Source of the DNA: a virus
Virus record (IMG/VR): IMGVR_UViG_3300047168_000032
Location: 1 to 52,506 of that record
Direction: 5' to 3' (one strand)
Length of the DNA stretch: 52,506 bases
Shown in pieces: positions 4,044 through 52,506 of the stretch. Below the pieces are notes generated by a model. That model made no database searches. It worked only from the letters and a program-made list of their open reading frames with translations, and was not told the origin of the DNA. Position numbers and translations under genes: made by a program. Within the stretch, counting starts at the first letter, position 1, and the number at the start of each line of letters is the position of its first letter.

Positions 4044-5918
4044 TTATTGTATGCCTAATTTTTTCAATAATATTGCACTGTTAGGGTTATTTGGGTTAGC
4101 TCTTGCCCACTGTACCATTGCTTGTTGCTGTGGAGGTAGTCTCATTTCAGGTGAGCCTGTAGATTTGAATCTGTTTAAATCAATACCAAAAGCTTTAGCT
4201 GTAGGCGCAGAAGCTTTTTGATCTAAGAACGCTCTTAATGCTTGTCTCTTTTCAGCAACCCTAGCATCTGTATCAAAGGGCTTGGGTTCTAGATCACTTA
4301 AAGTCTTTTGCTCAAACTCGTTAACTCTGCCTTCTGCATCGTGAATCATTGGAAGTGAAAGGGATCTCATTGCTAATATAGATGGCGGTGCCAATCCTAA
4401 GTGGCCAACTCTACCTGCTATGGTGTTCTCTTTAGCAGCTTTGTCAAAGTTTTGCATCAATATATCACCGTTATGGGCGGCATTTTGAGCTTGTGATATT
4501 TCATGTAAAACCTCTTTCTGATGTTCTTGTGGAACTAATGAGGGAACTAACTGAGCTGGGTCCATCCCTTGTAGGTTTGCACTGCCAGATTGTAACATGC
4601 GTCTCATTCCAAGTTGTTGCATTCCTGCGTTAATTTGGTTTTGAAGCTGTGTTACCATGGCCTGAGCTTGCATCTTAGCCATTGGAGAGGTTGCTTGTGC
4701 TTGTAATCCTTGAAGATGTTGTAGGGTAACGCCTTGAGCCATGATACGACTCATATCAGCAGCATCTCTCACGTTGCCATATTGTCTCATGTTAGCTGCT
4801 AGCAGATTCTCTTTCTTACCTAGTTCAGCTTTCTGAGCATCTATATCTTGGTCAATGCTGCGATTAAGCATATCTAATGCCACGTTTCGGCCGCCATTTA
4901 TGGTACCTAGTCCACCCAGTGCCACAGATAACACCGTGCCGATCTTGCCTAGTGTTGATTTGTTGGCCATATATCGATTAGGATCAACATGTTGCTGTCG
5001 CGCATCATCTAGGAAAGACTGATAATCGTCATTAAGATTCTCTACATGATCATGGAACTGATCTGCTGCCTTCTGTGCATCTGCTGCTCTAGCTAGTTGA
5101 TAAGTAGATGTTTCATATGCGGTTTTTTCTGCATTCTCACCAATCTTAGTAAACTCGTCCTTAGGGGGTTCTGGTTGTTGATCTTGTGGTTGCATCGACT
5201 GAACCTGTTGTGCTGTCTGAGATAGATCAGGTGCTGATTGCTGGTCGGATGGTTGTTGTGTTGAGTCAGATTGAGGTGTCATTTGGGACAGCTGTTGGGA
5301 AAGTTGGGACAAATCAGGGGAAGCTTGCGGTGCAGGTTGCTGAGGCTGCACATCAGGTGTACCGTCTGCATACTTCTGAATCTCACCGCCATTGGCACCT
5401 CTAATGCCACCAAAGCCGTTAGAAGGACTATCTTTTCTAATAAGAGGTTGAGGTTGCGCATCAGGTGTGCTGCCGCCGTCTGCAGGCTTCTGAATCTCAC
5501 CGCCATCGGCTTTGAATGCATCTCTAATCGATCCTAATGCTTTTTCTCGCCTAGTGCCGTTTGCTGGTGGCTGAGAGGCAGGTGCCTGGGTGATAGGAGC
5601 TGGAGATTCATCATCTGAAGCAGGGGCTGTTTTTGGAGCGTTATCGTCGTTTCCGAAAGCTTTCCTGATACCACCTAATAGTTTACTCATGTTGGTCTCT
5701 TCTACGTCGCCGCCGTTAGCCATTGGTTGTTGCACTGGCATGCTTTGTGATGCAGCACTTGGAACTGACTCAAGCTTTTGCAGTTGTTGGCGCATCTTAG
5801 GTGATAGAGCTTTATGAGCAATCTTTATAGAGTGGCCTTCTGGGGTTTCTAACACCGTGTGATGTTGATCTCCACCTGTTTTCTTGAACTTGCTGAAATC
5901 TAAAGGAAACTTAGCCAT
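4044..5918 (-). CDS. Gln/Pro-rich internal virion protein with GGE(I/V) repeats
   Basis: 624 residues. The N-terminus KFKKTGGDQHHTVLETPEGHS followed by KIAHKALSPKMRQQL is a conserved-looking module that I recall from other phage virion proteins. Residues about 65-250 are low complexity, with NGGDVEE, DGGEIQKPADGG and NGGEIQKYADG and long Gln/Pro runs. The remainder is helical (DQFHDHVENLNDDYQSFLDDARQ; KAELGKKENLLAANMRQYG) with a short Gly-rich hydrophobic patch. It lies between two other internal-protein candidates with 1-9 nt spacing. A role in the ejectosome or as a head-interior component is inferred. Confidence 0.6.
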   Translation of the reverse strand: MAKFPLDFSKFKKTGGDQHHTVLETPEGHSIKIAHKALSPKMRQQLQKLESVPSAASQSMPVQQPMANGGDVEETNMSKLLGGIRKAFGNDDNAPKTAPASDDESPAPITQAPASQPPANGTRREKALGSIRDAFKADGGEIQKPADGGSTPDAQPQPLIRKDSPSNGFGGIRGANGGEIQKYADGTPDVQPQQPAPQASPDLSQLSQQLSQMTPQSDSTQQPSDQQSAPDLSQTAQQVQSMQPQDQQPEPPKDEFTKIGENAEKTAYETSTYQLARAADAQKAADQFHDHVENLNDDYQSFLDDARQQHVDPNRYMANKSTLGKIGTVLSVALGGLGTINGGRNVALDMLNRSIDQDIDAQKAELGKKENLLAANMRQYGNVRDAADMSRIMAQGVTLQHLQGLQAQATSPMAKMQAQAMVTQLQNQINAGMQQLGMRRMLQSGSANLQGMDPAQLVPSLVPQEHQKEVLHEISQAQNAAHNGDILMQNFDKAAKENTIAGRVGHLGLAPPSILAMRSLSLPMIHDAEGRVNEFEQKTLSDLEPKPFDTDARVAEKRQALRAFLDQKASAPTAKAFGIDLNRFKSTGSPEMRLPPQQQAMVQWARANPNNPNSAILLKKLGIQ

Positions 5919-14889: not shown

Positions 14890-14974
14890 CTCCTAATTAA
14901 TCTGTGAGGGCGTGCTCACTTGCCGACGGGTGTCGTCGCAAGCATCATTTAAGCCAGGCATGACCCGTGGCCCC
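14890..14974 (-). ncRNA. Structured 5' leader with possible kissing loops
   Basis: Between the promoter at 14981-15008 and ATG 14884 the transcript would carry three stems: GCCA/TGGC around CGGGTCATGCC, CTTGC-GACG/CGTC-GCAAG (14919-14942), and GTGAG/CTCAC (14904-14919). Loop 1 contains ACGGGT, which is complementary to ACCCGT in hairpin 2, so a pseudoknot is possible. The ribosome site lies just past the last stem. This could be a cis-regulatory element; I do not match it to a known riboswitch class. Confidence 0.35.
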
Positions 14975-14980
14975 TCTTGA

Positions 14981-15008
14981 CTTATACTTATTGCATTTAA
15001 GGTGCCAA
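14981..15008 (-). promoter_or_regulatory. Sigma70-type promoter for the 14.9-13.9 kb operon
   Basis: TTGGCA (15008-15003), 16-nt spacer, TATAAG (14986-14981) on the minus strand. The start would fall near 14974, giving a leader of about 90 nt. Confidence 0.45.
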
Positions 15009-15081
15009 ACAAAATCTAACAATTTCAAGGTGTGTCTTATTGAAAGAGTGTATATAGGCGTTGACAATGTAAAAAGCTTGT

Positions 15082-17268: not shown

Positions 17269-18515
17269 TTAAGCGCTTAATTGTACTACGCAATTCCAAC
17301 CTGGGGCTGAGCACACTAAATTTCCATAGTATGCGATGCGAATTTCTAAGGCGTCAGCATTTCCAACTCGTAATCCCTCTAACCCTTCCATTCCGTAGGT
17401 CAAAATGTGCGGTATTTTACCTAAGGAGCGAAGTTTCCAGGTGCTCATCGTTAAGATATAAGCAGTCTGTGGAGGGCAAGAGCGGTCAGCAAGTACCGTG
17501 ATACGTCCGTATGCCGATTGGAAGGTGATACCTTGGAAGGCAACTTCAACTTCGTCATGGTCTACTTGAACATATTGAACTTTAGCTCCTAAGCTGTTTA
17601 CAAGAGCAGCATAAGATGCAAAGTCCATGATACAGAGATCTGGTCGTCCACCTTCACGGTTGATGAATGCAAGGGCGTTTGTAATCCCTTCTTCAATCGT
17701 GTAGTTCTGAGCATTGTAGCGTAACCCAGCCAAACGAGTTGGGTCTTGGCTTCTGTTAACTCCCCAGAAATTGTCGTTAGCAGCAGGACTTGCTATTGGA
17801 ATCCAAGCAGCTAGTCCTGACAATGCTAAAGCCGATCCAGTGCTCACTGTTCCTAGAACGATATCACCATTGACTCCCAGGGCGTTTCCAGCAGCTGCCC
17901 ATGAGGAATCAGCACCGCCACTTGAAGTGAGGATAGTAACGATACCGTTGGCACGGTCAACTTTCTGGACAAATCCAGTTGTAGCACTGATATTAGAAAT
18001 AACCCCACCAGCGTACACGTAGTTGATCAGCGTCATTCCTGGTTCGAAGTTAACAATTTGTTGAACGTTCTGTAACACGATAGCGTATACACCAACGGAT
18101 GGGCTAGATGCTGATGCGATGAAACCACGTGTTCCCGAACCGTCTCCGAACAATTCAAATGCGATATTGTTGGTCAAAGTTCTGAATCCACCGTCGAGCT
18201 GTAATTTAGCTTCATCGACGAAAGCTCCGGCATTTGACTTAGTCTGTTCCATCAACAAGTTGGTGATCGTGACTAATTGGTAGTCCTGAACCACATACAC
18301 GAAGAAAGACGCTAAGTTAGTAGGAGTCTGTTGACTCTGAGCAAGAGCGAACGTATGGTCACGCCCTTGGGGTGCTCCGAATTCGATTGGGACTGGTATA
18401 TACTTACCAGCAAAGCCGTCCGGAGACTCATTCTTAGGCACTAAAGCAAAGAAAGGATTCTCTTTATAAACGACATCCTTCATATATTCATTTGAATCTG
18501 TGTAAAGCTCTTTTA
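17269..18515 (-). CDS. Major capsid protein, exon 2
   Basis: This exon gives 414 residues plus a split Leu codon. Spliced to exon 1 (19195-19153) the protein is 429 residues: MAAIYANPQNQVAA-L-KELYTDSNEY then MKDVVYKENPFFALVPKNES, PVPIEFGAPQGRDHTFALAQ. The KDVVYKENPF-ALVPK start and the later NDNFWGVNRSQDPTRLAG, TIEEGITNALAFINREGGRP, LCIMDFASYAAL and VEVAFQGITF are typical of HK97-fold capsid proteins of this type. The upstream in-frame stop (TAA) shows that translation cannot simply extend from 18483, while the spliced frame is open. Followed by a strong terminator. This is probably the most highly made protein of the virus. Confidence 0.85.
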
Positions 18516-18752
18516 CAATTTGTTATCGCAGGTTATTAACCCCTGCCTCACTGGTTTCTTTTGTTATACCAGTGTTCAGACTATCACACCGCCTTTCGGC
18601 GTCATCTCATTTAGTCGTTCACGGTGGTTTTTACCTTCCGCCTTGTCACCTACTGCTAGGCTTCCAAGTCAATTAGAGAAAATTTATCCAGCTCTAAAAT
18701 TGTACATAAGTAAAACTAAATCTTTTGTAAGATTTTAGTCTGCTGTTAGGGT

Positions 18753-19106
18753 TTAGGACAGCATACCTTTTTTACCCTTGTTCCAAGGAGTTATAGAATC
18801 TTTTTTTCTAACTCCTCGCCCTTCGCCTCCTAAGTTAATGTTATACTTAGGTTTGTATTTAGACATGTAATGTTTTTCCGCTGCATCTAAGTCTACCTGG
18901 TTGTAGTACACACTGTGTACGTTCCAGGTGAATTTATCAGCGCCGTGCTTTCTTAAGCCTGCACCTATCACATATCCTTTGCCTCTTTGTGCATTGTATT
19001 CGTGTTGTTTTTTTCTTGCTTCCAAAGAGAGTTTCGACTGCCCTATATAAACTATTTCATCATTTAATCTGACAAAATATATGATCATGGGTTTATCACT
19101 AAACAT
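18753..19106 (-). CDS. GIY-YIG homing endonuclease (intron-encoded)
   Basis: 117 residues. MIIYFVRLNDEIVYIGQSKL holds the GIY...YIG core (IYF and VYIG), then EARKKQH (catalytic Arg), LDAAEKHYMSKY (metal-binding Glu) and YNINLGGEG (Asn). The C-terminus ITPWNKGKKG looks like a NUMOD3-type DNA-binding stub. It makes a double-strand break at intronless capsid alleles, moving the intron. Its ATG 19106 lies only 6 nt past the -10 of an intron promoter, so the message would be almost leaderless unless the inner ATG at 19088 is used. Confidence 0.85.
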   Translation of the reverse strand: MFSDKPMIIYFVRLNDEIVYIGQSKLSLEARKKQHEYNAQRGKGYVIGAGLRKHGADKFTWNVHSVYYNQVDLDAAEKHYMSKYKPKYNINLGGEGRGVRKKDSITPWNKGKKGMLS

Positions 19107-19112
19107 ATGTTT

Positions 19113-19141
19113 AATATACCATTTTATTTTACTTAAGTCAA
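19113..19141 (-). promoter_or_regulatory. Intron-internal sigma70-type promoter
   Basis: TTGACT, 17-nt spacer ending TGG, TATATT on the minus strand: one of the best matches in the window. It lies inside the intron directly before the endonuclease gene, allowing expression separate from the capsid message. Confidence 0.6.
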
Positions 19142-19152
19142 CAAATAAGTTT

Positions 19153-19195
19153 AAGCTGCTACTTGATTTTGGGGGTTTGCATAAATTGCGGCCAT
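19153..19195 (-). CDS. Major capsid protein, exon 1
   Basis: ATG 19195 with AAAGGA 6 nt ahead starts MAAIYANPQNQVAA plus the first base of a Leu codon (TTA), completed by exon 2. Without splicing the frame meets TAA at once. The product continues as KELYTDSNEYMKDVVYK, a natural capsid N-terminus. Confidence 0.8.
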
Positions 19196-27243: not shown

Positions 27244-27272
27244 TCTATATCACAGTTTATGTAAAAAGTCAA
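27244..27272 (-). promoter_or_regulatory. Sigma70-type promoter, extended -10
   Basis: TTGACT, 17-nt spacer ending TGTGA, TATAGA on the minus strand, 18 nt before ATG 27226. The -35 overlaps the last codons of the transporter gene. Confidence 0.65.
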
Positions 27273-28159
27273 GCTTTTTTATCTAATTCTTTAATACGTT
27301 TTGTAATCATTTGCAAATCAACTACGAGATCCCTGCTATCAACAAAGACACTTAAACTTGATAACACTTGTTCGATGGCGCTACTGGTCTGAAACAATAC
27401 TCCTAGCATTATTGCGTGGTGTAGGTACATAGGCAACAACATAACGTACGGGAATATAACAGCTATTTGTCCGTAAAAGCTAGTGTAATAGCTGAGAAGC
27501 TTATTTCTCACTGCTAAGGCTGTCCAGTTTTCTTTGATCTCATCCAAAGTCGGGAAAGCGGTGGTTTCCTCCACAGCCTTAATAATATTTCTTCTCAAAG
27601 TTGCTTCCTTCGCTTCTTGTATGTATTCTAAGTCCACTAGTCTAGCAGCTACTTTTCTACTACCCAAAGTGCCTATTACAGCATATACAACGGACACGAT
27701 CACCATCCAAAAAGGAGCTACCGACCATAATACGATTAAAAATACAGGTAGTCTAACCACTGAATCTACTACCGCTTTAATTAAAGCAAGAATAGTGCGT
27801 CCAAATCTAAGAGTATCTTCTTGTAATCGCTGGTCTTTATTAGGAACGTCTGAGCCCATTATCTTATCACATAGCGTATGGTACAAAGATTCTCGGATGC
27901 TGAATTCTAAAAATCTTGTGTAATAAGAAGATATTCCGTAAACAACCACGTTGATTAATGCTAGTACGATAAACACACCTATCCCAATCCAAACGTTCTT
28001 AACGTTGTATAACTGTATGTTATCATAAAAGAAACCGCGCCATTTGTTAAAAGCAACCGAAAGTGCGATTAGAGCCAATAAGCTCATTAACACATAAGCA
28101 GTTAGCTTCTTTTTTTTCTTTACAATTGGCCATAGAATCGACAGTGCATATAAATACAT
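27269..28159 (-). CDS. SbmA/BacA-like membrane transporter domain (ABC-type transmembrane half)
   Basis: 296 residues with about six hydrophobic helices (near 18-36, 55-78, 125-160, 225-250 and others). The stretch ISSYYTRFLEFSIRESLYHT followed by DVPNKDQRLQEDTLRFGRTI matches the SbmA/BacA and ABC-D type pattern (aromatic-R-x-x-L...N-x-D-Q-R-x-x-E-D). No ATPase domain follows; SbmA family members are also ATPase-free and take up peptides by proton motive force. It is shorter than SbmA (about 400). It sits directly downstream of DNA polymerase. Role is unknown: peptide or nucleotide-like import, membrane change or exclusion of other agents. Confidence 0.65.
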   Translation of the reverse strand: MYLYALSILWPIVKKKKKLTAYVLMSLLALIALSVAFNKWRGFFYDNIQLYNVKNVWIGIGVFIVLALINVVVYGISSYYTRFLEFSIRESLYHTLCDKIMGSDVPNKDQRLQEDTLRFGRTILALIKAVVDSVVRLPVFLIVLWSVAPFWMVIVSVVYAVIGTLGSRKVAARLVDLEYIQEAKEATLRRNIIKAVEETTAFPTLDEIKENWTALAVRNKLLSYYTSFYGQIAVIFPYVMLLPMYLHHAIMLGVLFQTSSAIEQVLSSLSVFVDSRDLVVDLQMITKRIKELDKKA

Positions 28160-42621: not shown

Positions 42622-42993
42622 CTAATGGTCCGTTTCACTTAAAAAGTTTTCGTCTACCTGTTCTAGGTTGCAGTAAAACATTGCATCACGATTTGCAAAT
42701 TGCGACAGTGCTTTTGAGAAACCTTCAGCCACTGCATTTAAAATGTTAAATTTAACCGCGGCATACCGAGCGGTCACGTAGCTAACTAAGTCTCTAGTTT
42801 CAAGTTCATACTTAGGGTTGTCTCTTAACACTTCTGCCAGGACGGTATTAACAAAAGCAGTTATGAATTCTGCTTCTATCAGCATGATGGCTTTATCTTT
42901 GTCTTCTAAGTCAGTTGCTTGATTTTTAAAGGTTTTATGTAACTCTTTACTAACTTCATCTGCAAATTGCTCTAAACTTATACTTTTTTTCAT
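42622..42993 (-). CDS. Hypothetical helical protein
   Basis: 123 residues: ISLEQFADEVSKELHKTFKN, LVSYVTARYAAVKFNILNAV and AEGFSKALSQFANRDAMFYC. All-helical, acidic. First gene of the minus-strand block starting at the promoter 43015-43043, and so one of the earliest genes. Function unknown. Confidence 0.55.
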   Translation of the reverse strand: MKKSISLEQFADEVSKELHKTFKNQATDLEDKDKAIMLIEAEFITAFVNTVLAEVLRDNPKYELETRDLVSYVTARYAAVKFNILNAVAEGFSKALSQFANRDAMFYCNLEQVDENFLSETDH

Positions 42994-43014
42994 ATCTACC
43001 TTCTTTCTATTATT

Positions 43015-43043
43015 AGAATAACATGTAACAATTTAATAGTCAA
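43015..43043 (-). promoter_or_regulatory. Sigma70-type promoter, extended -10
   Basis: TTGACT, 17-nt spacer ending ATGT, TATTCT on the minus strand, 22 nt before ATG 42993. Confidence 0.65.
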
Positions 43044-43089
43044 CTTTTTTTTAACTGTTAAGTTGTTATTGTTGTTTTTTTTTCTTTCT

Positions 43090-43463
43090 CAATAGATGGG
43101 GGCGCATAGGAATACACTAAAGATTGAATTAATTATTATTAGATAAGATATAGCCTCTGTAGGTAAGTATTATCCTGTAGGTTATAGTACTACAGCTTTT
43201 ACTTATAAAACACTGGCCTAGGGTATACAGGCTATATCCGTATCTAGACATGGCGCTATAGGTATTCACTACGCATACCATGTGTCCCTACCAGCTAGCA
43301 GCTCCTAACAGACGGGGCATGCTGAGGTTTCCACTGGATATGCCTTGACTAGAGAGTGCCTATCAAGACTATGCTACAGCTTGCGCTGGAGGCTATACAG
43401 CCCATGAGAAGTATATGCGCAAACTCTGCAACTTCTCACTGTCACCGGTATCCCCCGGTGTCA
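43090..43463 (-). ncRNA. Candidate structured noncoding RNA
   Basis: From 42994 to 43635 no ORF of useful length is visible on either strand, though the stretch is not AT-rich like its neighbours. Two promoters (43470-43498 and 43508-43536) point into it. The transcript would fold into several stems: CACCGG/CCGGTG, GAGAAGT/ACTTCTC with an 18-nt loop, GGCT/AGCC, GGTAT/ATACC, CTGTAG/CTACAG, and a long-range GATATAGCC/GGCTATATC pair. No terminator is evident, so the 3' end (near 43090) is uncertain. It could also be a replication or packaging site. Confidence 0.4.
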
Positions 43464-43469
43464 ATAATT

Positions 43470-43498
43470 ACCCTAGCATAGGTGAATGGAAAAGTCAA
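43470..43498 (-). promoter_or_regulatory. Sigma70-type promoter into the putative RNA
   Basis: TTGACT, 17-nt spacer ending TATGC, TAGGGT on the minus strand. Start would be near 43463. Confidence 0.5.
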
Positions 43499-43507
43499 GC
43501 ATTATTT

Positions 43508-43536
43508 TAAATAGTATAAGCTTTTTACACTGTCAA
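43508..43536 (-). promoter_or_regulatory. Second sigma70-type promoter into the putative RNA
   Basis: TTGACA, 17-nt spacer, TATTTA on the minus strand, tandem with 43470-43498. Its -35/spacer part (GTTGACA-x-TGTAAAAAGCTT) also occurs on the plus strand at 15060-15078, next to the end of the 15082 gene. Confidence 0.5.
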
Positions 43537-43588
43537 CGCACATGTACAGCTTTTACTGAGAGCGGTGTTGATTTTATTGATGATTATG

Positions 43589-43604
43589 TGGCACTCCTGA
43601 TGCA
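43589..43604 (+). promoter_or_regulatory. Sigma54-like -24/-12 site
   Basis: TGGCACTCCTGATGCA has GG and GC separated by exactly 10 nt, with TGGCAC identical to the -24 consensus and ATGCA at the -12 (consensus TTGCA). It lies 32 nt before the first plus-strand ORF. If real, host sigma54 would drive the plus-strand operon. By-eye match only. Confidence 0.3.
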
Positions 43605-43617
43605 ATACTTATAAGGC

Positions 43618-43713
43618 GAGAGGGAGATAGAATTTATGAATAAGATAGAACCAGGTTTAGACACATTCTTTTTACTAACGTTGTTACTTTGTTTACTTGT
43701 TAAGGCAGCAACT
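43618..43713 (+). repeat. Tandem duplication, copy 1
   Basis: Copy 1 and copy 2 (43735-43830) lie 117 bp apart. The leader AGAGGGAGATAGAATTTATG and the 3' block TTACTTTGTTTACTTGTTAA are identical, the middle has diverged. Each copy encodes one membrane peptide. Confidence 0.8.
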
Positions 43714-43725
43714 TTTATATTTTAG
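43636..43725 (+). CDS. 29-residue membrane peptide, duplicate copy 1
   Basis: MNKIEPGLDTFFLLTLLLCL then LVKAATFIF: a charged start, one hydrophobic helix (LLTLLLCLLV) and a short tail. Ribosome site GAGGGAG. It shares LLLCLLVKAAT with the next ORF. First gene of the plus-strand operon; a holin or toxin-like role is possible, unproven. Confidence 0.55.
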   Translation: MNKIEPGLDTFFLLTLLLCLLVKAATFIF

Positions 43726-43734
43726 TGGTACAAT

Positions 43735-43830
43735 AAGAGGGAGATAGAATTTATGACTAGGATAGAAGCAGGTTACATGTACTTTTTAGTAATGTTATTA
43801 CTTTGTTTACTTGTTAAGGCAGCAACTTTA
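43735..43830 (+). repeat. Tandem duplication, copy 2
   Basis: Second copy of the 117-bp unit; see copy 1 at 43618-43713. Confidence 0.8.
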
Positions 43831-43854
43831 TATTTTAATGGTTATTTACAATAA
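43753..43854 (+). CDS. 33-residue membrane peptide, duplicate copy 2
   Basis: MTRIEAGYMYFLVMLLLCLL then VKAATLYFNGYLQ. The same plan as copy 1 with the conserved core LLLCLLVKAAT and start M-x-x-IE-x-G; ribosome site GAGGGAG. Both frames kept open and the start/stop preserved although the sequence drifted, which favours function for both. Confidence 0.55.
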   Translation: MTRIEAGYMYFLVMLLLCLLVKAATLYFNGYLQ

Positions 43855-43863
43855 GGAGGATGT

Positions 43864-44028
43864 ATGAAAATTGAAGATATTAAGTTCTATGTAATGAAAA
43901 TGAAAGGGAAAAAACCGGATCCTGTGGTAGTGCCAACTTATCTTTGCAATGTTTACCTTTGCAACGTAAAGTCAGTAGGGGGTACGAGCAGGTGTAAAGA
44001 ACACACAAGGCCTTATCAAAAAGCTTGA
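43864..44028 (+). CDS. 54-residue Cys/His-containing peptide
   Basis: MKIEDIKFYVMKMKGKKPDP, then LCNVYLCNVKSVGGTSRCKE and HTRPYQKA. Three Cys and one His in CN-x-x-x-CN...C-x-x-H spacing could form a small zinc site. AAGGAGG before ATG 43864. Its stop lies in the hairpin that also holds the next promoter. Confidence 0.55.
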   Translation: MKIEDIKFYVMKMKGKKPDPVVVPTYLCNVYLCNVKSVGGTSRCKEHTRPYQKA

Positions 44029-50980: not shown

Positions 50981-52506
50981 TTATTGATAATGCTCTTCGA
51001 CTATGACAATACCGCTGGCACCCACACCGCCACTGCCTGTGTTGCCGTTAGCGCCGCCGCCACCACCACCGTAGTTACCTCCACCGGTTCCTGAACCGCC
51101 GCCTGCTGCTGCAGAACCCATACTGCCACCGCCTAAAGTGCTTGAGCCTCCATTACCACCACAGCCATATGCAACACCTGATACGGTTACCCCACCAGGG
51201 CTACCTGCTCCACCTACAAACTGTAGATCACCATAGTTAGCAACTCCACCCACTCCACCTGCAGCACCGTTAGTGCTAGTTCCTGCGTTAGCCCCACCGC
51301 CTCCGCCGCCGGCTGTACACAAATTTGTGCCAAAGCTCGAAGCACTAGCAGTTCCGTTTGCTGCTGCACCTGCTGCGACTGAGAAAACATATGAGGAGGA
51401 TAAAGATGATAAAAACTTAATAGCTGTAGCTCCACCGCCTCCGCCACCAGCTCCACCTGAAGATGAACCACCTCCGTTATTTCCACCACCACCGCCGCCA
51501 CCAACCGCTGTAACTTTAAGATAGATTGGTGATGGGCTGACAGGGAGGAAATAAGTACCGTTGGCAGCAACTGAGCTGTAGGTCAGGGTAGCAGATCCTG
51601 AACCAGAGGATCTCGTGAGGGTCCCTGACGAGCTGGGAGCATTAGATCCAATGCTTCTGTATGCAACAAGAGTAGTGGCGCCAGATATTGTTTCAGCGTA
51701 CACCGTTGTGAAGGTTGAGCTGTTGTTGGTATACTGATCTCCTGCGGCCCATGAAGGAGAGGCTTGTGTAATAGTAAAAGTGTAATAGTTATTTTGGTAG
51801 AAAATTTGGGTAGTTACAGCCTTTAACACTGAGGTATTACCGGGTAGAGTTGTCATAGCAGGAGCTGATCCTGAGCCATTACTAGTCAGTATTTGTCCTG
51901 AAGTACCTGCTGATGCTGAAGTTATGTTGCTTGAACTTGTTGCATACATAACACCATTGGTTGTAAGGCCTGAAAAAGAAGGAGTTCCAGCACTTTGCCA
52001 ACTAACTGTTGTGCCATTAGAGGTTAAAACTGTTCCGTTAGATCCTATAGCGAGTCTGGAAGCAGTGTTTGTGCCAGTCCCTATGATTAGATCACCAGTG
52101 GAGGTTATGGGGCTTAAAGCGTTAAAAGCAGCGCTAGCAGAAGTTTGACCTGTTCCACCATTAGCTATAGCAATTGTTGTGCCATTCCAGGTACCGGATG
52201 TGATGGTCCCGACAGATGTTAGTGAAGATGACACCACTGATGAGTTTAAAGTCGTTCCTGACAGTGTGCCTGCAGGTGCAACAACGGCATTTCCTGATGC
52301 AGCGGTAATTAAACCTTTAGCGTTTACTGTGAAACTTGGTATTGAAGTGCTAGAGCCAAATGACCCGGTGTTAGAATTAACTGTAGCTAGTGTTAAGGCT
52401 GCTGATCCTGGTCCAGAAGCAGTTGCATCACCAGTTAAGGCAGTGATATAGTTTCCACTTGCTTGTTTATTATTGAAAGTGTTCCAGTCAGTACTAGACA
52501 AATACC
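50981..52506 (-). CDS. Tail fibre/adhesin, C-terminal part (runs off window at 52506)
   Basis: About 508 residues of an open frame entering from the window end. It starts in the YLSSTDWNTFNNKQ repeat; the TTG codon near 52501 is not a real start. After one more repeat unit (ASGNYITALTGDATASGPGS, TSVGTITSGTWNGTTIAIAN), a distinct domain follows, then a long Gly-rich region (GGGGGGGNNGGGSSSGG, ... YGCGGNGGSSTLGGGSMG) and the end GVGASGIVIVEEHYQ, the typical C-terminus of Gly-rich phage adhesin tips. It joins with 1-1106 to give a protein of about 897 residues if 62 bp are missing at the window junction. Confidence 0.8.
   Translation of the reverse strand, partial: YLSSTDWNTFNNKQASGNYITALTGDATASGPGSAALTLATVNSNTGSFGSSTSIPSFTVNAKGLITAASGNAVVAPAGTLSGTTLNSSVVSSSLTSVGTITSGTWNGTTIAIANGGTGQTSASAAFNALSPITSTGDLIIGTGTNTASRLAIGSNGTVLTSNGTTVSWQSAGTPSFSGLTTNGVMYATSSSNITSASAGTSGQILTSNGSGSAPAMTTLPGNTSVLKAVTTQIFYQNNYYTFTITQASPSWAAGDQYTNNSSTFTTVYAETISGATTLVAYRSIGSNAPSSSGTLTRSSGSGSATLTYSSVAANGTYFLPVSPSPIYLKVTAVGGGGGGGNNGGGSSSGGAGGGGGGATAIKFLSSLSSSYVFSVAAGAAANGTASASSFGTNLCTAGGGGGGANAGTSTNGAAGGVGGVANYGDLQFVGGAGSPGGVTVSGVAYGCGGNGGSSTLGGGSMGSAAAGGGSGTGGGNYGGGGGGANGNTGSGGVGASGIVIVEEHYQ
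52131..52506. repeat. Fibre-gene repeat matching 388-763
   Basis: The last 376 bp align gaplessly to 388-763. In the internal copy 62 bp (764-825) separate the base matching 52506 from the base matching position 1. 376 + 62 + 387 equals 825, the same period as the 1/826 pair. Confidence 0.9.

Follow-up and report, generated by a model that had tools for sequence, protein, structure and literature searches.

The window, meaning the whole stretch of DNA that was analyzed, is a complete virus record of 52,506 bases from an uncultivated tailed phage, whose genes include those for an SU10-type capsid protein, a terminase, a family A DNA polymerase, a DnaB-like helicase, and a RecA-like ATPase. Leftward genes fill the side left of 43 kb, in a run starting at 42993, and the genes beyond 43.6 kb run rightward and comprise ORFs for two small membrane proteins, a trypsin-like protease, and an endolysin. 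The two small ORFs (43637–43723 and 43754–43855, plus strand) are a tandem duplicate encoding tiny proteins of about 29 and 33 amino acids, with the same ribosome-binding site, AGAGGGAGATAG. The gap between the two sets of genes is the point at which a leftward replication/holin operon diverges from a rightward small-membrane-protein/protease/endolysin operon. ARAGORN detected no tRNA or tmRNA in the whole record.

The gap extends over 886 bases (42994–43879) in which neither strand has an ORF of at least 60 amino acids; the runner-up gap in the record has 217 bases. An earlier note on this DNA, which described this as the only long region without an ORF, is therefore correct at this cut-off, with three short ORFs of 41–50 amino acids lying inside the gap. 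A six-frame reading for a coding or frameshifted gene gave nothing recognizable. The region was also said to have less A/T than its surroundings, and this is borne out by a G+C content of 0.47 in 43147–43463, as compared with 0.265 in the left flank, 0.365 in the right flank, and 0.40 in the whole record.

Elsewhere in the record, a candidate group I intron (18500–19195, minus strand) lies inside the major capsid gene and has a GIY-YIG endonuclease ORF (18753–19106) within it. The capsid ORF (17269–18483) seems to have no start of its own, with a short 5′ exon near 19195, and the stretch contains core-like motifs (GAACGACTAAATGAG...GGCGGTGTGATAGTC); judged from these features, it is likely to be a group I intron carrying an endonuclease ORF, although Rfam does not report it. 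Directly after the DNA polymerase gene is a gene for an SbmA/BacA-like peptide transporter (27269–28159, minus strand; Pfam E 2e-32). The ends of the record (297–763 and 52040–52506) share 467 bases with 88% identity, which is probably a repeat within tail-type genes and not an exact terminal repeat.

The central part of the gap, 43130–43470, has a minimum free energy of −114.7 kcal/mol on the plus strand, a value that not one of 500 dinucleotide shuffles equaled (−92.3 ± 5.0 kcal/mol; z −4.50). The mean positional entropy is 0.340, versus 1.049 ± 0.274 in shuffles (0 of 120 as low), and the fold ensemble approximates one single structure. On the minus strand the same stretch is ordinary (z −1.73; entropy 0.913, with 53 of 120 shuffles as low). 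When both strands of the record are tiled with windows of this length, each of the 612 windows has a higher entropy than the plus-strand element; it should be noted that the borders were picked on the sequence itself, so that these figures are somewhat flattered, but unpicked windows still rank first, the lowest-entropy window of the grid being one that overlaps the element. Energy alone does not single out the element, because in a coarse scan (12 shuffles per window), in which the windows at the element rank 3 and 13 of 522, several coding windows reach similar values, some of them beyond that of the element. The fold contains 54 A-U, 50 G-C, and 8 G-U pairs, and at 10 bp its longest perfect inverted repeat does not exceed those of shuffles (P 0.13); the signal is carried by the whole fold and not by this repeat. 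The stretch thus shows one of the features generally looked for in a structured noncoding RNA, namely a fold on one strand that surpasses shuffles of matched composition in both stability and definition.

The earlier note had recognized several stems, including a long-range pair, within wider borders (43090–43540). By the measures above, the folding is stronger than was claimed, and the pair, an inverted repeat (43147–43161/43224–43238), is part of the plus-strand fold, but the borders do not stand: the entropy of the wider stretch is 0.97, an ordinary value, and the natural borders are therefore placed at about 43130–43470. The candidate RNA of 341 nt so delimited has a weak closing stem, P1 (43130–43136/43464–43470), two long arms, and four hairpins. 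Arm P2 (43140–43246; pair probabilities 0.58–0.98) contains the inverted repeat I1 and has the helices TAGATA/TATCTA, then GATATAGCCT/AGGCTATATC (10 bp), TAGGT/GCCTA, and an apical CTGTAG/CTACAG. Arm P3 (43249–43373; 0.86–0.997) is a long hairpin that is almost continuous, broken by small internal loops, and includes the helix ATAGGTATTC/GAGTGCCTAT (10 bp, two G-U) and an apical GCTCC-UAACAGAC-GGGGC. The four hairpins (43377–43463; 0.71–0.997) are CAGC-uugc-GCUG, GGCU-auac-AGCC, UGAGAAGU..ACUUCUCA, and CACCGG-uauccc-CCGGUG.

Searches for homologues of the element returned little beyond the element itself. Rfam 15, which includes GOLLD, ROOL, tmRNA, 6S, and group I intron families, gave no match in the window at the gathering threshold, and the best matches at permissive thresholds were to snoRNAs with E values of 3–9; this negative result should be read with caution, since the same search misses the likely group I intron described above. 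Comparison with phages and plasmids by blastn gave no match of weight. A covariance model (R1) run against 33 sources, 32 whole records, and 193 Omnitrophota genomes matched only the element itself, besides a chance-like match of 53 nt (E 0.02), and two 16-mer seeds led to four IMG/VR contigs, none of which has the fold. As far as these searches reach, the element is specific to the lineage of this phage.

Several noncoding RNAs of other phages invite comparison. In the Vibrio phage ICP1, the most abundant transcript is a noncoding RNA of about 800 nt from an ORF-less space beside the lysis cluster (PMC7567579). The present element is similar as a candidate noncoding RNA that lies next to lysis genes, in a gap free of ORFs and with no tRNAs nearby, but the ICP1 transcript is twice as long and was demonstrated by RNA-seq, whereas the element is a prediction; the comparison is one of description. 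GOLLD and ROOL are large, elaborately folded phage RNAs with no assigned function (PMC12286853). They are longer (GOLLD often >800 nt), are mostly beside tRNA genes, and are defined by covariation and solved structures, whereas the element has 341 nt and no Rfam match and lies in a record without tRNA; membership in these families, taken as a length of >500 nt near tRNA genes, was accordingly rejected. In phage K, lnc001 and lnc002 are expressed intergenic long noncoding RNAs of 635 and 1154 nt near tRNA genes (PMC9241854); they share with the element an intergenic location in a phage, but are longer, expressed, and near tRNA genes. At most, the element is like these RNAs in kind, and it is a member of no family tested.

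IMG/VR queries with the protease, terminase, and DNA polymerase gave no relative that was close enough. Alignment of the RecA-like protein provided 29 IMG/VR loci, two Omnitrophota-binned contigs (54 and 42% identity), and one remote contig from a Pedobacter bin; an alignment of p40800 added no further contigs. The closest relatives in cellular assemblies, L038 and L039, are both from bins named Omnitrophota, which is a hint as to the host. The gene order that is kept consists of endolysin and protease, the divergent spacer, a 123-amino acid protein of no known family, a holin-like small membrane protein, a spanin-like protein, two small proteins, and the RecA-like protein; the holin and spanin labels reflect only protein length and gene order, since neither Pfam nor PHROGs gave a match. 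In about a dozen relatives the divergent spacer, of 300–1300 bases, has no large genes. These spacers hold RNA-like elements of a content different from that of the window, and blastn, nhmmer, and the covariance model found no resemblance between them and the element.

In 12 relatives, a strong intrinsic-terminator hairpin stands directly ahead of the replication operon, on the strand of that operon (L006 2608, L007 4300, L008 5737, L016 6100, L017 6636, L018 4580, L022 276, L023 5778, L025 4302, L029 5722, L005 651, and L009 5355). The motif CCUCC, CCCUC, or CUCCC is present in the loop or at most 30 nt upstream in 12 of 12 of these spacer terminators versus 1 of 26 further terminator-like sites of equal strength in these loci, although the spacer terminators were first selected with the motif and the comparison against all terminators came after. 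The unit lies on the strand of the recA-like gene, at a distance of 1.3–5 kb upstream, and clear sigma70-type promoters with 17-nt spacers can be seen by eye ahead of the unit in L006, L007, L018, L022, and L025. The unit looks like a small RNA (70–90 nt) that bears an anti-Shine-Dalgarno-like motif; in L005, L016, and L029, where the operon start codon follows closely, it may alternatively be a leader. The unit is absent from the window. In L023, positions 5530–5829 have an entropy of 0.32, and the same spacer has a compact four-hairpin RNA-like element (5550–5680, plus strand) with a T-loop-like TATCGAATC hairpin; a tRNA-like identity for the latter was rejected, ARAGORN and Rfam being negative and z only −2.6.

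The two tandem promoters with 17-nt spacers that had been proposed to point into the region are present as letters but are weak. The best upstream sigma70-like match, AATACA-17-TATTAT (43111–43139, plus strand; 8/12), would place the start of an RNA near 43146, where arm P2 has its base, and the second, AAGATA-17-TATTAT (43145–43173, plus strand; 8/12), lies inside the fold. With spacers of 16–18, such sites are not above chance either upstream (4 versus 3.1 expected, P 0.40) or across the region (7 versus 3.8, P 0.13); an excess (5 versus 1.2, P 0.005) arises only under a spacing fixed at 17 afterwards. A standard promoter scan gave 5 sites versus 4.8 expected, with neither TATTAT site among them. 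Thus, neither the scan nor the site counts relative to shuffles provided a convincing plus-strand promoter for 43130–43470, and a standard scan found no terminator at its 3′ end.

To the left of the element, the leftward operon has the promoter TTGACT-17-TATTCT with an extended −10 (43015–43043, minus strand), whose −35 region, TTGACTATTA, has the same sequence and place in L007 and L025. A 14-bp dyad, AACAATTTAATAGT/ACTGTTAAGTTGTT (43027–43067), lies over this promoter and is followed by a T run, and 42991–43110 folds on the plus strand with a z of −5.8; the dyad may be an operator or a plus-strand terminator-like structure. To the right, 43518–43624 (plus strand) is a second, decayed copy of 14972–15079 (minus strand; 71% identity, E 4e-6), and a promoter-like block, GTGGCA-16-TATAAG (43588–43615, plus strand), precedes the rightward operon. 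Both copies have kept TGGCAC-N5-ATGCAATA-N2-TATAAG, which also fits the −24/−12 pattern of sigma54; this reading of the TGGCAC-N5-ATGCA block was rejected as too weak, with 6 sites genome-wide versus 2.2 expected and both copies belonging to one duplication. On the minus strand at 43536 there is a sequence with a perfect −35 box, TTGACA-17-TATTTA.

The element could serve the rightward operon as a structured 5′ leader, with control in cis via antitermination, attenuation, or mRNA stability, since it is on the strand of the operon and ends 167 nt before the first start codon with no terminator between. However, the better promoter-like block (43588–43615) comes after the element and is common to the second genome copy, suggesting that the rightward operon has its own start, and in the relatives, as read by eye, the promoters of the matching operon stand immediately before its first gene; a leader is therefore regarded as unlikely, and the balance tips slightly toward an independent stable transcript. 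Control at the level of DNA, in which a replication origin or operator region lies at the divergence point and the RNA fold is incidental, is quite improbable. Two operons do diverge here, the A+T-rich left part has the dyad over the leftward promoter, and the cumulative GC skew has its minimum at 43.2–43.6 kb, but this minimum follows from gene orientation, no iterons were found, and the repeats seen at the gap are short two-copy ones and the single 14-bp dyad. Furthermore, a signal confined to one strand and including eight G-U pairs is not expected of a DNA hairpin, and this asymmetry indicates a structured RNA as opposed to a DNA site. A packaging site, which was among the earlier suggestions, finds no support, the terminase gene being 18 kb away and repeats of the kind needed being absent, and there is no positive evidence for another, a host-RNA sponge or decoy.

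The adjoining copy of a small gene region, which has decayed (43518–43624), is what might be seen if the spacer were unselected leftover sequence, from decayed genes or an insertion, with an extreme fold by chance, and it is also true that no homologue was found and that one region was picked out of a genome; nevertheless, values equaled by 0 of 500 shuffles in energy, and by 0 of 120 shuffles and 0 of 612 windows in fold definition, are not expected of decaying sequence, and this explanation is given little credence. Least probable of all is a functional minus-strand transcript from the promoter-like sequence at 43536, a counterpart of the relatives' small RNA, which is on the matching strand; the perfect −35 box is in keeping with it, but the fold of that strand is unremarkable (43499–43205, z −0.96) and the CCUCC-plus-terminator unit is missing from the window.

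The stretch 43130–43470 has no coding potential, is predicted to adopt a single, strongly defined fold on one strand, and lies in a spacer whose position is conserved in related phages. A fold of such unusual definition, and on one strand only, is most readily accounted for if an RNA is under selection, and selection on the plus-strand RNA structure is considered likely. Phage genomes are almost gapless, and a defined fold of 340 nt in a spacer that is kept therefore suggests a useful RNA. Of the three readings offered in the earlier note, that of a new phage noncoding RNA has the best support, given a plus-strand-specific defined fold, no coding potential, and no Rfam family, although it is at present a prediction. 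The element is probably such an RNA; more specifically, a probability of roughly 0.55 is assigned to its being a structured noncoding RNA that is specific to the lineage, is about 340 nt long, and is transcribed rightward from the divergent spacer.

In this model of a lineage-specific RNA, rightward transcription over 43130–43470 would produce an RNA of about 340 nt that would be stable during infection and, as a free-standing molecule, would act by its shape, binding a protein, the ribosome, or itself, and not by base pairing. This mode of action is proposed because it has been suggested for other large phage RNAs, and it is put forward tentatively. Related phages would place other RNA-like elements in the same spacer. 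To our knowledge, few phage RNAs of about 340 nt have been described and none has an agreed function. It is conceivable, if doubtful, that the element belongs to a novel class of structured phage RNA of intermediate size (about 340 nt) and that the spacer is a hot spot at which regulatory RNAs are exchanged in this phage group, perhaps with effects on translation. The spacer of a dozen related, uncultivated phages appears to carry a small-RNA-like gene whose motif would mimic the mRNA-binding tail of the ribosome.
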